Shown piece after piece: positions 4,515-20,826 of a stretch of DNA of 20,826 bases; position 1 is the first letter of the stretch, and every line of letters starts with the position of its first letter. The DNA comes from a virus. The notes under the pieces were generated by a model. It was given only the letters and a program-made list of their open reading frames with translations. It was not told where the DNA came from and did no database searches. The DNA lies in IMG/VR virus record IMGVR_UViG_3300030103_005721, positions 1 through 20,826 of that record, one strand, 5' to 3'. The position numbers were made by a program, and so were the translations under genes.

Positions 4515-4910
4515 ATGAGTGCAGCACACACCACCCTCGTTGGGCGACTGGCCCGCGACCCCGAGTCCCGCACCAGCAATCGCGGAACCACCATCGTCAA
4601 GCTCACCATCCCGGTCGACACCGGCTGGGGCGAGAACAAGACCACCACCTGGTGGACGGCAGCGATCTTTGGAAAGCAGGCCGAGCGCGCCCAGCAGTAC
4701 CTCAAGAAGGGCAGCTGGGTCTGCGTGTCGGGCAATGCCTCCGTGCGCTCGTACGAGAAGCGCGATGGTTCCACGGGGCACAGTGCAGAGGTTGCCGTTG
4801 ATAGCTGGTCTTTCGTCGGCAACAAGCAGCAGGAGGACAGCGAGCCCTACCGCTCGTCGCCGTCTCCCACTCGTCGGCCGTTGCCGCCCGAGGACGAGAT
4901 GCCCTTCTGA
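4515..4910 (+). CDS. ssb: Single-stranded DNA-binding protein
   Basis: This 131-residue SSB of the bacterial type binds single strands during replication and recombination. An OB-fold spans about residues 4-101, with the typical opening TTLVGRLARDPESR (6-19), the strand TTTWWTAAIFGKQAE (43-57), and the LKKGSWVCVSGNASVRSY segment (63-80). A short Ser/Pro linker leads to the acidic tail EDEMPF (126-131), which in bacterial SSBs docks partner proteins. The start is fixed by a strong Shine-Dalgarno sequence. It is the last gene of the plus-strand block. Its final 64 bp overlap, on the opposite strand, the end of the spanin-like gene, so the tail-coding stretch is constrained on both strands. Confidence 0.94.
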   Translation: MSAAHTTLVGRLARDPESRTSNRGTTIVKLTIPVDTGWGENKTTTWWTAAIFGKQAERAQQYLKKGSWVCVSGNASVRSYEKRDGSTGHSAEVAVDSWSFVGNKQQEDSEPYRSSPSPTRRPLPPEDEMPF

Positions 4911-5254
4911 GCAGCGACCACCAGCGCCTCGACAGCATCACAGTCGGGGCGCTGGGCGGCGCTCTGCCCGTATTGCCAGCATGCCTGCAGCATGCACTGC
5001 GGGCTGAGCGGATCACCACCCAAAGACGCAATGCAAGCGGGCGGCACCTTGGCAAGTGCAGCCCGCACTTCTGCGTCAATGACCACAGGCTTGCCCGCCG
5101 CCTCGACCAGGGCACGCTGCCCATCTTGAATGGTGCCGATGAGCTGGGTCTGCTCTTCGAGAATCTTGTGCGTCTTTTGCTTGTTGAGCGACACGCCAGT
5201 GGCAATGCCGCCGCCGAAAAGCAGGACACCGCCTACGATAAGAGCAGGAATCAT
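4847..5254 (-). CDS. Small one-span membrane protein, spanin (Rz)-like candidate
   Basis: This is a 135-residue protein. An N-terminal hydrophobic segment (about residues 2-21, Gly-rich: IPALIVGGVLLFGGGIATGV) is followed by a basic turn, a helical stretch rich in Gln/Glu (about 22-55), and a Cys-containing region (four Cys, in the segments PPACIASLGG and CMLQACW and again near RPDC). One membrane span followed by a helical periplasmic part, directly after an endolysin gene, fits an inner-membrane spanin or another lysis protein; no specific family is recognised. The ATG at 5254 overlaps the endolysin stop (ATGA). A TTG at 5272 would add six residues but is less likely. Its end overlaps the SSB gene tail to tail by 64 bp. 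Confidence 0.7.
   Translation of the reverse strand: MIPALIVGGVLLFGGGIATGVSLNKQKTHKILEEQTQLIGTIQDGQRALVEAAGKPVVIDAEVRAALAKVPPACIASLGGDPLSPQCMLQACWQYGQSAAQRPDCDAVEALVVAAQKGISSSGGNGRRVGDGDER
4921..4955. terminator. Strong hairpin just past the SSB stop, possible terminator of the early operon
   Basis: CCAGCGCC (4921-4928) pairs perfectly with GGCGCTGG (4948-4955). Inside it, CGAC (4930-4933) pairs with GTCG (4943-4946), and T4929/G4947 can form a wobble pair, giving about 13 paired positions around a nine-base loop. It begins 10 bases after the SSB stop. No T-run follows on either strand, so it is not a textbook intrinsic terminator. It also lies inside the spanin-like coding sequence on the minus strand. 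Termination or transcript protection is inferred. Confidence 0.4.
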
Positions 5255-5667
5255 TTTGGGTCCAACTGCCAATGTGGACCATCCCGGAGTGTAGGCCAGT
5301 CAGCGCCAGCGGTCAGTGTGTACTGGCCCGTCACCAACTCGTGGACAACCAGCCTGGCCCAAACGTCTTTGATGTGGCTGACCAAGGGGTGGTAATGGTC
5401 CCAGTCCCAGGACACCTTGCCGTCCACGTAAGGGGCCACGTCCACCGCCATCGAGGGCATGCTGTTGTGCTTTGACTTGGGCCACAGCAACCTGCTCCTG
5501 CCCTCTGCAACTGCTCGGTTTTGGCGCTCTTCGCCTCGATGCCCCTCGAGCACCGTAATGTCATACGGACACTCTGGGTCCGCCAGCGCCTCACGCATGA
5601 GAAGCTGGAGGTCAAGATGACAGGTGCTTAGGCGGCTCAACGACCGTTGGCTGTACGACCATCTCAC
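5251..5667 (-). CDS. Endolysin: M15-family peptidoglycan peptidase
   Basis: This 138-residue protein resembles phage L-alanyl-D-glutamate / D-alanyl-D-alanine peptidases of family M15, single-domain zinc enzymes that cut peptidoglycan stem peptides at lysis. Zinc ligands are visible as H67 and D76 in SKHNSMPSMAVDVAPY (65-80) and H132 in DGPHWQL (129-135). D123 in GADW is the likely catalytic or supporting acid. The N-terminus (SQRSLSRLSTCHLDLQLL) is the usual family opening, which supports the GTG start at 5667. No signal peptide is present, so a holin would be needed for export. The GTG overlaps the stop of the upstream 41-residue gene (GTGA), and its own stop overlaps the next start. It sits in the lysis cassette. 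Confidence 0.9.
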   Translation of the reverse strand: MRWSYSQRSLSRLSTCHLDLQLLMREALADPECPYDITVLEGHRGEERQNRAVAEGRSRLLWPKSKHNSMPSMAVDVAPYVDGKVSWDWDHYHPLVSHIKDVWARLVVHELVTGQYTLTAGADWPTLRDGPHWQLDPK

Positions 5668-5789
5668 TTTTTCTTGCGTCGTTTTTGAGCAGCCTTCACA
5701 GCCTTAAACTGCTTCAGCGCCTTCTTCTTCGTGGTGGGCTTGCTTTTCTTGGTGGCCTTGTGCTTGCCGCCCTTGGTCTTGTACATCAT
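5664..5789 (-). CDS. 41-residue polylysine-type basic protein
   Basis: The protein has 17 Lys and 2 Arg among 41 residues and no acidic residue, ending in KRRKKK. Such a composition suggests nucleic-acid or membrane-surface binding; no family is recognised. It begins with two ATGs (5789 and 5786). GGAG at 5793-5796 on the minus strand lies three bases before the first and six before the second, so the second may be the true start. Its first ATG overlaps the TGA of the upstream basic protein, and its own TGA overlaps the GTG of the endolysin gene. This tight coupling on both sides, plus the Shine-Dalgarno match, is the main evidence that this very short gene is real. Confidence 0.75.
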   Translation of the reverse strand: MMYKTKGGKHKATKKSKPTTKKKALKQFKAVKAAQKRRKKK

Positions 5790-6112
5790 TTTCTCCGACG
5801 CTGAGGTGAGGCCCGCTTACCGGACCGCTTTTGGGCAGCCTGCTTGGCAGGCCGCTTCATGCTTGGCGTCTTGCTGGACACCTTCTTGGTAGGACGGCAG
5901 TAGCTTTTGGAACCGCCAGCGCCCTTGGCACCACACGGCTTGCCACTGGCCGTCTTCCACTTTTCCTTGTCCCACCGCTTCAGGCTCTTGCCCTTCTCGG
6001 TCTTGCGGACCTGGCCCTTGGCTTTGCGGCACTTGGCCACCGCTTGGCTGGCGCGAGCCGACGGCCATTTCTTGTACTGTCGCTTGATCTTCTTTGTGCA
6101 TGCGTCTGCCAT
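5786..6112 (-). CDS. Lys/Arg-rich small protein with a Cys-containing core (DUF5872-like)
   Basis: This 108-residue protein has about 38 Lys/Arg and only four acidic residues. The central part (about 45-85) contains KRWDKEKWKTASGKPCG and SKSYCRPTKKVSSKTP, which resemble a small conserved domain of phages and other viruses that I associate with the DUF5872 name; the name is from memory. Four cysteines (5, 28, 60, 71) could bind metal or form cross-links, though no classical zinc motif is clear. The C-terminus (RPAKQAAQKRSGKRASPQRR) is a histone-tail-like basic extension. The ATG at 6112 begins 2 bp after the stop of the upstream basic gene. A longer upstream extension exists in frame but overlaps other genes and is rejected. 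Function is unknown; DNA or RNA binding is inferred. Confidence 0.75.
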   Translation of the reverse strand: MADACTKKIKRQYKKWPSARASQAVAKCRKAKGQVRKTEKGKSLKRWDKEKWKTASGKPCGAKGAGGSKSYCRPTKKVSSKTPSMKRPAKQAAQKRSGKRASPQRRRK

Positions 6113-6114
6113 GG

Positions 6115-6381
6115 CTACCTCGTGCTCTTCTTGCCCTTGCACCGCCACCGCTTTCGGCTCAGGCGCAACGGGCTGTTCGGATTCTTGGCTGCCTTGGGGT
6201 TCTTCTTCATCTGCCCAGCACTGCGGGCACAGTAGCTGTCGCCCTTGCTGGTTCCGGGCTTGACCCTGGGGCCACCGCCCTTGGCCTTGCCCGCCTGGCC
6301 GTAGCTGACCTTGCGCTTGCGGCCGGTCTTGGGGTCGCGGTACGTCTTGACCTTGGCCTTGCCCTTTGCCGGCTTGGCCAT
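6115..6381 (-). CDS. Lys/Arg-rich small protein (DUF6321-like)
   Basis: This 88-residue protein has about 30 Lys/Arg and two acidic residues. The N-terminal half is a Gly/Lys-rich tail (AKGKAKVKTYRDPKTGRKRK). The C-terminal half has a conserved-looking core: VKPGTSKGDSYCARSAGQMK (40-59) and NSPLRLSRKRWRCKG (69-83), with Cys51 and Cys81. I recall this core from phage proteins filed under the DUF6321 name; that identification is tentative. The ATG at 6381 overlaps the TGA of the holin candidate (ATGA). The next basic gene starts 2 bp after its TAG. It is one of three consecutive basic proteins between holin-like and endolysin genes. Function is unknown. Confidence 0.78.
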   Translation of the reverse strand: MAKPAKGKAKVKTYRDPKTGRKRKVSYGQAGKAKGGGPRVKPGTSKGDSYCARSAGQMKKNPKAAKNPNSPLRLSRKRWRCKGKKSTR

Positions 6382-6674
6382 CAGTGCACCGTTGGTTTGT
6401 CGATGAGGATTTTGTGGATGCCCGACAACGTGTCCTCCATGCGCTTGTGCTGCGCACGGCACTCGCTGATCTGCTGGAGCCAGGCCTCACGGTCAGCTCG
6501 GTGCTCGACAATAAGGGCGTCAACGCTCTTCAGGTGGGCGTCCACCCAACGGCTGACTGCCGGCACAAGGGTGCCTGTAGTGAACCGGGCAGCTCCGAGG
6601 GCCATCCCACCCAAAAGAACTACACTACTGGCCGGTCCTGTGAGCAGGCTGATCAGGTTGAGGTCTGCTTCCAT
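6381..6674 (-). CDS. Holin candidate: small membrane protein with a cytoplasmic helical tail
   Basis: This is a 97-residue protein. A hydrophobic N-terminal segment (about 6-30, including SLLTGPASSVVLLGGMALGA) could cross the membrane once. It is followed by a long charged helix (about 40-85) and a short polar end. Size, topology and position just upstream of the lysis genes fit a holin or a pinholin-type protein; T7 also has a small one-span lysis protein after its fibre gene. No sequence family is recognised, so an Rz-like or other membrane protein is an alternative. The ATG at 6674 follows a G-rich stretch that can act as a ribosome binding site, and its stop overlaps the start of the next gene. 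Confidence 0.6.
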   Translation of the reverse strand: MEADLNLISLLTGPASSVVLLGGMALGAARFTTGTLVPAVSRWVDAHLKSVDALIVEHRADREAWLQQISECRAQHKRMEDTLSGIHKILIDKPTVH

Positions 6675-19070: not shown

Positions 19071-19771
19071 CGCCACCTCCCAATGCTGACCACCCTGTTG
19101 CTAAACAGGTGTCCCTGCATGATGTGTGTGTTGTTGGTGACCTCTTTCTCGGCATCGTCAGGACCGGGACCGGTCAGCCTCCACTGGCATTGAACCTCAA
19201 CCGGACCTGATGGAGCCTGAGCCTCGCCAATGATGCGGAAGTGGTCCATCGGCTTGGCTGCTCCGTACCGCTCCGCCACCACCACACCGTTGTGCAAAAT
19301 CCGCATCGACACCCTACGGCTGATGGGCTTTGTAAACGGGCTGGCGTTGTTGTCCCGCTTGGCACTGCGGTAGAAAAACTGAAAGCAGGCGATGTTTCCG
19401 AACCACTCCGTCTGCAAGCTACCGCCCTTGAAAGGGTCCACCGTGTAGCTGAACGCTGTCCGCCAACCGCCACCGTAGAGCTGGTGCGTTGCTGCTCGGA
19501 AGGTTTCGTTTCGCGTGTTGCTCTGGGTAGCGCGGACGTTGGTCTGCTCGCCCTCGGTGTCTGCCTCACCCCCGCTGGCTGCCCACAGGTTGTGCACAAC
19601 AACGATGTGGGTTGCGTGGTCAACCAGACGCGCCTCGGTCACAACGTCAGCCGGGTACTGCGAACGGTCAAGCCCTGCAATCTGCCCGCGAAATGAGGTT
19701 TGCTCTGCGTTGAACTGCTCAGCTTCGATAAGCTGGTTGGCCTTGGCCTGGTGCTGGGTCCATTCCTTCAT
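19067..19771 (-). CDS. Beta-rich virion protein of unknown function (234 aa)
   Basis: A short helical N-terminus (MKEWTQHQAKANQLIEAEQF, about residues 1-20) is followed by a beta-type body with segments such as THIVVVHNLWAASG (about 54-67), RTAFSYTVDPFKGG (about 103-116) and VSMRILHNGVVVAER (about 154-168). Such a build, a short helix then a beta domain, is common for proteins that plug into a tail or portal complex. No family is recognised. The ATG at 19771 overlaps the stop of the nozzle-like gene (ATGA), and its TGA overlaps the next ATG. The neighbouring genes all look like virion proteins. Confidence 0.68.
   Translation of the reverse strand: MKEWTQHQAKANQLIEAEQFNAEQTSFRGQIAGLDRSQYPADVVTEARLVDHATHIVVVHNLWAASGGEADTEGEQTNVRATQSNTRNETFRAATHQLYGGGWRTAFSYTVDPFKGGSLQTEWFGNIACFQFFYRSAKRDNNASPFTKPISRRVSMRILHNGVVVAERYGAAKPMDHFRIIGEAQAPSGPVEVQCQWRLTGPGPDDAEKEVTNNTHIMQGHLFSNRVVSIGRWR
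19076..19080 (-). promoter_or_regulatory. Ribosome binding site of the 306-residue gene
   Basis: GGAGG on the minus strand ends five bases before the ATG at 19070 and lies inside the end of the upstream gene. It selects this ATG over the GTG at 19076. Confidence 0.75.
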
Positions 19772-20826
19772 GCCGTCTTCCCCGCAATGACCCGTACTCC
19801 GCGAGACTGGAACTCGATCTCGTACCCCACAAGCATAATGTCATCCGTGGTTTCCAAACGGAACTTGAACCACGAGCACGACTGCTGCGCAACGCTGATG
19901 CGAACCGGCACAAGCTGGGCCCGTTGCCACTTGGCAGTGCCCACAAGACCGGTGTCGAGCACAGGCTGACTGGCTGTGTCCGCAGGCTGCGCCAAGTACG
20001 TCTTGTTGGTACCGACCTCGGTGTACCCAAAGTCCTTGAAGTGAGCCAGATTCAGCTTTACGTCACCCGTTGTCTGAATCCACAGGGTCACGTACTGCAC
20101 TTGCTTCTTGACCTGAGCATCACCCATATCGAGCCATGCGCTTTCATACACAGACGTAGGCGGGTTGTTGGTCACGTAGGCGTCGGATTCAATCTTGCCA
20201 CCCATGGCTCGCTTGGCACTGATGACAAACAAACCGGCCTCGCTGTTGGCCCCCGCCTCTGCTCCAGTGTGGTGCCCGAACAGCAGGGTGCCGTTGTGCA
20301 ACCGGTCGATGCACCCAACCGGGAACCCGGTGCGGACACTCCAGCCTCGAACGATGTGGTACACCAAGCCCAGGTTTGGGCGATCGTTGCCGTCGGCAGG
20401 AATGTACAGATGGTACTCCTGCGTGCGCGGGCTGTACCGACCCACTGCGCGGTGCGCACAAGTGCGCGTCAGGCGCTGCAGTGCTTCTCTGATTGGCTGA
20501 CCAAGCGGAACCAACTGCACCTGCGAGCCACCAACAACACCACCCTTGATGGCGTACACTTGGTCTTCCGCAAGAAACACAGTGCCAACACCAGGGACAA
20601 TGTCGATGCTGTGCGGTGACCGACAGGCAACCTGATCGGTAATCGTTTGCGCAGTGAAGTTCGGGTACGAGCCCGTCACAATGTCGATGCCCTGCTCGCG
20701 CAACACCAGCAGCACGTTGTAGTGCTGAGCCATTCCTACAACCGCACCGCCTCTGCTGTTGAGGCTCAGGTAGTCAGCGCCGCCGAACTGGTCGGGCAGC
20801 CCTGGGTGGCTGTAGTACAAGCGGGA
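19768..20826 (-). CDS. Tail nozzle-like beta-propeller protein (T7 gp12 / P22 gp10 type), partial
   Basis: The C-terminal 352 residues are visible; the reading frame stays open through the right edge, so the N-terminus is missing. It resembles the beta-propeller tail proteins that close the tail tip or stabilise packaged DNA (T7 gp12 nozzle, P22 gp10). Signs are YYSHPGLPDQF near the cut end, the repeating blade-like pattern MAQHYNVLLVLREQGIDIVTG, TVFLAEDQVYAIKGG and GRYSPRTQEYHLYIPA, and a C-terminal beta domain (VQYVTLWIQTTGDVKLNLA). This is a fold-level resemblance read from sequence. Its position upstream of the gp14-16-like trio supports it. Its stop overlaps the next start. Confidence 0.7.
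   Translation of the reverse strand, partial: SRLYYSHPGLPDQFGGADYLSLNSRGGAVVGMAQHYNVLLVLREQGIDIVTGSYPNFTAQTITDQVACRSPHSIDIVPGVGTVFLAEDQVYAIKGGVVGGSQVQLVPLGQPIREALQRLTRTCAHRAVGRYSPRTQEYHLYIPADGNDRPNLGLVYHIVRGWSVRTGFPVGCIDRLHNGTLLFGHHTGAEAGANSEAGLFVISAKRAMGGKIESDAYVTNNPPTSVYESAWLDMGDAQVKKQVQYVTLWIQTTGDVKLNLAHFKDFGYTEVGTNKTYLAQPADTASQPVLDTGLVGTAKWQRAQLVPVRISVAQQSCSWFKFRLETTDDIMLVGYEIEFQSRGVRVIAGKTA

Follow-up and report, generated by a model that had tools for sequence, protein, structure and literature searches.

The internal proteins IPI, IPII and IPIII of phage T4 are small, basic and late, and they serve as a comparison for the genes studied here. In T4, the capsid-targeting sequence (CTS) is made up of the first 10 residues, with positions 4 and 7 serving targeting and positions 8 and 10 processing, and gp21 cleaves after L/I-x-E (PMC9026906). 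T4 ejects its internal proteins, and one of them, IPI, blocks a restriction enzyme (PMC9026906). The families DUF5872 (PF19197) and DUF6321 (PF19846) are already on record but nameless, and our literature search on DUF5872, DUF6321 and the cyanophage cluster T4-GC119 found no functional study. The present study adds a unified view of these proteins as modules that co-occur across phage types, together with capsid-targeting and protease-site evidence.

The window analysed here, a stretch of 20,826 nucleotides, belongs to a 30.4-kb IMG/VR record from an aquatic, podovirus-like phage. The plus strand of the window carries the replication arm (VapE-like primase/helicase, ERF, RuvC-like and PDDEXK proteins). 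The late arm runs on the minus strand, and the TerL, portal and capsid genes lie outside the window in the rest of the record. The late arm ends with a small membrane protein, three basic proteins (the trio, P0001 to P0003), an M15 endolysin and a spanin-like protein, laid out as follows.

6381-6674, minus strand: small membrane protein with a coiled-coil-like tail (the 'holin candidate'), poorly conserved
6115-6381, minus strand: P0001, 88 aa, a predicted beta-hairpin and then a DUF6321-like core (module C)
6301-6354, minus strand: predicted beta-hairpin of P0001, residues 10-27 (AlphaFold2)
6139-6237, minus strand: module C (DUF6321 C-terminal half) in P0001 (HMM match; hhalign)
5786-6112, minus strand: P0002, 108 aa, a DUF5872 member made of module A and module B
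6002-6100, minus strand: module A in P0002, DAC..K...WPSARAS...KCRK (HMM match; predicted helical hairpin)
5867-5983, minus strand: module B in P0002, LKRW...GKPCG...YCRP (HMM match)
5664-5789, minus strand: P0003, 41 aa, lysine-rich
5251-5667, minus strand: M15-type endolysin with a GTG start (phrog_465, E 3.7e-33)
4847-5272, minus strand: spanin-like small membrane protein with a TTG start and an alternative ATG at 5254 (called from sequence only)

The first-pass annotation had described three coupled basic reading frames between a holin candidate and an endolysin, and we confirm the lengths, the joints and the share of basic residues. The membrane protein and P0001 genes meet in TGATG with a 1-nt overlap, a 2-nt gap separates P0001 from P0002, and 4-nt overlaps join P0002 to P0003 and P0003 to the GTG start of the endolysin. 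For P0001, P0002 and P0003, respectively, the K+R content is 34.1%, 35.2% and 46.3%, the net charge +28, +34 and +19, and the mass 9.6, 12.1 and 4.7 kDa, with pI values of 11.3-11.6. Inspection of the three sequences revealed no hydrophobic, transmembrane or signal segment. The endolysin identity is likewise sound, given its phrog_465 match. The holin candidate stands as a membrane protein with one hydrophobic stretch; profile searches matched it to no family, and the name holin is unproven. For the spanin-like protein, the family search gave no match of weight. At the far end of the window, a tail or structural-looking protein (19768-20820, minus strand) matches phrog_5107 'amidase' (E 1e-13) and phrog_3287, a virion structural protein; the source of the 'amidase' name is probably another domain of the phrog_5107 profile.

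P0002 is a full DUF5872 member. It scores 36.9 bits against PF19197 (curated cut-off 27.5 bits), and its residues 6-96 align to profile positions 11-104 of 116, a match that spans nearly the whole profile, A and then B. DUF5872 consists of two separable modules, A and B, with two cysteines each; in other phages the two halves of this family without a function are often separate genes. The corresponding residues of P0002 (C5, C28, C60 and C72) are invariant among 22 homologues. In module A, both cysteines are present in 105 sequences, neither in 19 and a single one in none, 17 apparent single-cysteine cases being read from the alignment as one-column shifts. This joint keeping or loss points to the module A cysteines working as a pair, for instance in a disulphide, and the cysteine pairs of the modules may have either a disulphide or a metal role. 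The predicted model of P0002 is poor (pLDDT 62) and places the module A helices at residues 4-12 and 19-31. Searched by sequence against solved structures, P0002 and S-CAM8 gp114 gave no significant match, and matches of P0002 to antibodies and growth factors, none better than E 0.15, were set aside as chance.

P0001 is best described as a divergent relative of DUF6321, a label chosen because it falls below the Pfam cut-off: the PF19846 profile gave no match to P0001 at E 1 and its curated cut-off of 28.5 bits was not reached, and none of 40 P0001 homologues matched PF19846 either. The likeness emerges when profiles are compared. The P0001 core aligns over 37 columns to the C-terminal core of PF19846, S[FY]CAR...RKWxC (hhalign, 98.0%, E 1.4e-13), and P0001 matches a Pfam-positive DUF6321 member at 65% over 46 aa. 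Residues 46-82 align to the C-terminal half of DUF6321, both cysteines included, and the two cysteines, part of the module C signature SYCAR...RWRC, are invariant in the collected homologues. This C-terminal core is what the two have in common, whereas the N-terminal half of DUF6321 (GLN..G...Y....PGS.L) is missing from P0001, where a predicted beta-hairpin takes its place. Thus the two family names given in the first-pass annotation were correct, DUF5872 for P0002 and the C-terminal half of DUF6321 for the P0001 core.

The AlphaFold2 model of P0001 has a mean pLDDT of 88.5 over the protein. By sequence, P0001 had no significant match to solved structures, and a fold search of the PDB with the model found no match either, with HU and Cren7 appearing only at E 4-7. 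No likeness to nucleoid proteins or histones was thus seen for P0001, by sequence or by fold, or for P0002 by sequence. Against a viral library, the fold search returned uncharacterised marine virus proteins, two DUF6321 proteins among the results only at E 0.7-1.4. Pfam matches of one or two P0001 homologues to gpW, Imm27 and ribosomal L35 were judged to be chance. In pelagiphage Greip (MT375525.1, 2974-3225 of locus L133), a DUF6321-like protein is annotated as 'RecA-like recombination protein (Gp114)'; this annotation looks wrong, the likeness being to the basic module family.

All three trio proteins are under purifying selection. In comparisons of the window with three related contigs (L095, L096 and L097), dN/dS was 0.09-0.16 for P0001, 0.05 for P0002 where dS is unsaturated, and 0.09-0.12 for P0003. 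Identities to these contigs, in the same order, are 93/91/84% for P0001, 96/92/75% for P0002 and 95/78/54% for P0003, against 30/35/47% for the upstream membrane protein and 93/64/38% for the endolysin. P0001 and P0002 therefore outlast the neighbouring lysis genes, which diverge or get replaced. P0003, whose relatives are recognisable only in near contigs, had been taken for almost pure polylysine; this was mistaken, as the protein has an alignable relative in L097 with 54% identity.

To place the trio among other viruses, we gathered 367 loci from five viral-contig scans and from isolates. Module HMMs detected one or more of the modules A, B and C in 364 of the 367, and the full set of three in 136 loci; the window holds all three. 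Since each locus was fetched through similarity to one module, finding that module in it was built into the design, unlike finding its partners, except that A and B arrive together where P0002-like proteins were the query. Every module pair lies on the same strand (531/531), and most pairs fall within 1 kb (AB 189/191, AC 171/189, BC 140/151). The first-pass annotation had made its reading depend on the genes being kept as a set, and the modules do co-occur in most loci. Their order varies, and they stand alone, in pairs or fused, in proteins of up to ~1,250 residues. The phages that bear them infect cyanobacteria, SAR11, roseobacters, vibrios and flavobacteria, and algal giant viruses also have DUF5872. 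The set looks largely restricted to viruses, because a P0002 profile scan of bacterial and archaeal genomes yielded only five MAG contigs. T4-GC119 (S-SM1 SSM1_115, S-CAM8 gp114) is one long protein in which HMMs place A and C, in a row with a variant form of B and a further module, D; these are fused with protease-like linkers, whereas the window encodes its modules in separate small genes.

Further small basic proteins accompany the set. DUF5754/Tlr6F has been reported in polinton-like viruses, giant viruses and phages (PMC12220804). It is also a small, basic, cysteine-bearing viral protein, but it is another family and is absent from the window. In L126 (6511-6801), a module SFRARHxC...YWSCKKW with a weak DUF5754/Tlr6F match adjoins a P0002 homologue, and in 28 of 29 cases this motif is no more than 1 kb away from the A/B/C set. 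A tiny basic module, KHSKHHTxKHMxxM..., occurs within 1 kb of the set and on the same strand in 13/13 cases (L045 6246-6398, L038 5381-5548, L040 3440-3595 and L027 6250-6411 are examples). Another, GLYxNIxARRKAGxSRSK (L028 5840-5980, L064 6273-6407, L045 6401-6559), lies at most 1 kb from the set in 41/41 cases, 40 of them on the same strand.

The position of the modules differs between phage types. T4-like cyanophages have them as T4-GC119, which lies between TerS and TerL. The T7-like P-SCSP2 and HTVC142P carry them between the scaffold and capsid genes, P-SCSP1q carries them after the capsid gene, and roseophages CRP-7 and CRP-212 have them directly upstream of the terminase genes. Pelagiphage HTVC203P and roseophage CRP-207, where the modules lie between lysis and replication or terminase genes, resemble the window in layout. 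Neighbours in 39 loci belonged, among the best 25 families, to terminase, head, tail and endolysin families, with one integrase; the M15 motif, sought with a narrow regular expression, was near the modules in 12/364 loci, a number too small to speak for a tie to lysis. Lysis genes are thus not the usual neighbours: in most relatives the modules adjoin packaging, head and tail genes. The link between the trio and lysis looks mostly positional, because the lysis genes belong to the same late operon.

Capsid-targeting signals were found in the T4-like clade. CTS-like starts occur in 22 of 28 module ORFs there and in 14 of 334 other ORFs, an enrichment that counts kin sequences separately and overstates independence, since at 75% identity the CTS starts reduce to only ~6 distinct ones. 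In this group of T4-like contigs the consensus M-K-x-F-x-x-F-L-x-E heads both A+B and C proteins, and examples such as MKKFKEFLAE/S and MKSFKEFLNE/S (slash, putative cut) match the T4 CTS in register. The cultured phage protein S-SZBM1_192 combines the start MKTFKQYITE/A with DUF6321, and in L146 a D module lies exactly between a CTS-like site and a C module (MKSFREYLTE/ACW...NCVPVNE/TAAW). The T4-type prohead protease (PF03420) was detected in 6 of 29 records, including the two largest CTS-module contigs, of 135 kb and 108 kb. In the long fused proteins, module A has [LI]xE no more than 10 aa ahead of it in 18/27 cases and module D in 25/32, against 7% and 6%, respectively, at random positions of the same proteins; these are figures for distinct cases with common ancestry and show position-specificity, not independent events. 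Before module B, the strict [LI]xE signal is weak (5/25) and the relaxed [LIVF]xE is found in 19/25.

Virion proteomics bears on the same point. Four unique peptides of S-CREM2 gp137 (4.1% coverage) have been recovered from CsCl-purified particles (PMC10665884). We find DUF6321 at the C-terminus of gp137, and the peptides are not tied to that part of the protein. S-SZBM1_192 is missing from the S-SZBM1 list of 30 confirmed virion proteins, which is weak counter-evidence because lysine-rich proteins yield short tryptic peptides. The detected S-SZBM1_190, annotated as a virion structural protein, was considered as a module carrier and holds no module.

Because the module set is conserved, its location late, its T4-like members furnished with a CTS and protease-like sites, and gp137 present in virions, we favour capsid cargo as the explanation: we see about an even chance that the trio are small, basic, late DNA-associated proteins, most likely in the virion head, like the T4 internal proteins. 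The strong charge suggests DNA binding, and homology suggests that packaging may extend to the window phage. The proteins would be produced at the same time as the rest of the late proteins and would be enclosed alongside the packaged genome or bind to it; from there they might reach the next host and have some effect in it. Their location among lysis genes would be incidental, the end of the late operon being a free site beside them. The trio is more likely to be packed with the viral DNA than used for bursting the cell.

We liken the way the trio would work to that of T4 internal proteins and do not assign it to their class, because neither a CTS nor a T4-type protease was found in the window record. 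P0001, P0002 and P0003 carry no CTS, unlike the T4 proteins; the likeness lies in size, charge and late position. The 30-kb record, perhaps incomplete, had no PF03420 match, and packaging here would therefore need another route. A scan of all loci found no CTS in the non-T4 lineages either, whereas the T4-like relatives of the trio have both the 10-residue CTS and the L/I-x-E cut site as in T4 internal proteins. Cysteine modules are not known from the T4 internal proteins.

More tentatively, and with doubts exceeding our confidence, we propose that aquatic tailed phages and algal giant viruses draw on a common kit of interchangeable basic cysteine modules of 30-50 residues as head cargo, T4-like members making a polyprotein cut by the prohead protease and podoviruses like that of the window using separate genes. 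Capsid cargo is a concrete function that the targeting sequences and protease-like sites suggest for two large nameless families, whose modules occur in hundreds of contigs and isolates, many of them Synechococcus and Prochlorococcus phages, and are listed only as DUFs or hypothetical proteins. The same signals suggest that head cargo may be a mosaic of small modules common to unrelated phage types. If true, this would also point to the proteins that could be delivered into host cells along with the DNA of phages that are very abundant in the ocean.

Other roles have to be weighed against head cargo. The modules could be late DNA-binding helpers in the completion of replication or in packaging, as cofactors of terminase or scaffold or as genome condensers, that stay out of the particle. 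Such helpers would suit the strong positive charge, the frequent position beside terminase and scaffold genes and the non-T4 lineages without a CTS; we nevertheless think them unlikely, as the CTS on A+B and C proteins of T4-like relatives would place these inside the head and gp137 was found in virions. We are still more sceptical of a role in host takeover, in which the proteins, once made or ejected, would bind RNA, ribosomes or the nucleoid of the host. The breadth of hosts, from cyanobacteria and SAR11 to roseobacters, vibrios and flavobacteria, disfavours a host-specific target, and the genes are late, not early, although RNA or DNA binding is frequent among small basic proteins and, T4 internal proteins being ejected, action in the host is compatible with the packaging model.

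Of the functions put forward in the first-pass annotation, packaged basic proteins are the option favoured by the evidence, and cationic lysis helpers, which would join holin and endolysin in disturbing the membrane, found no support. The latter idea draws on the position of the trio between a membrane protein and the endolysin in the window and in L095, and on M15, lysozyme or holin-like genes near the modules in L027, L063, L097, HTVC203P and CRP-207. Most relatives, however, have their modules away from recognisable lysis genes, as the rarity of the M15 motif illustrates; P0001 and P0002 are kept where lysis genes have diverged or given way to others; T4-like kin bear a CTS; and the trio sequences are without a hydrophobic membrane segment. 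We hold a lysis role to be very improbable. That the frames arose by chance and have no product, as their small size and low complexity in a GC-rich genome might suggest, we regard as practically negligible: dN/dS values of 0.05-0.16 contradict it, and invariant cysteines, the Pfam match and recurrence in hundreds of contigs stand against it.

Head cargo, our preferred reading, concerns the modules themselves, and CTS-like starts were also seen on other proteins. CTS-bearing proteins that resemble SAM-dependent methyltransferases (THIDIGGGKxDxG...VYDPYNRP) adjoin module genes on the plus strand of four loci, starting at L136 4949, L137 4402, L138 4998 and L139 4866, and are possible capsid-packaged enzymes. 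A 174-aa protein (L141 5307, plus strand) has a CTS followed by a P-loop (GHFASGKSTAVEKA) and is a possible packaged kinase. In L146, a 323-aa protein (5536, plus strand) has a CTS-like start and then FYHRTDPTSALNIQKNGVRAS, which recalls the start of an ADP-ribosyltransferase; it could be an Alt-like packaged enzyme.
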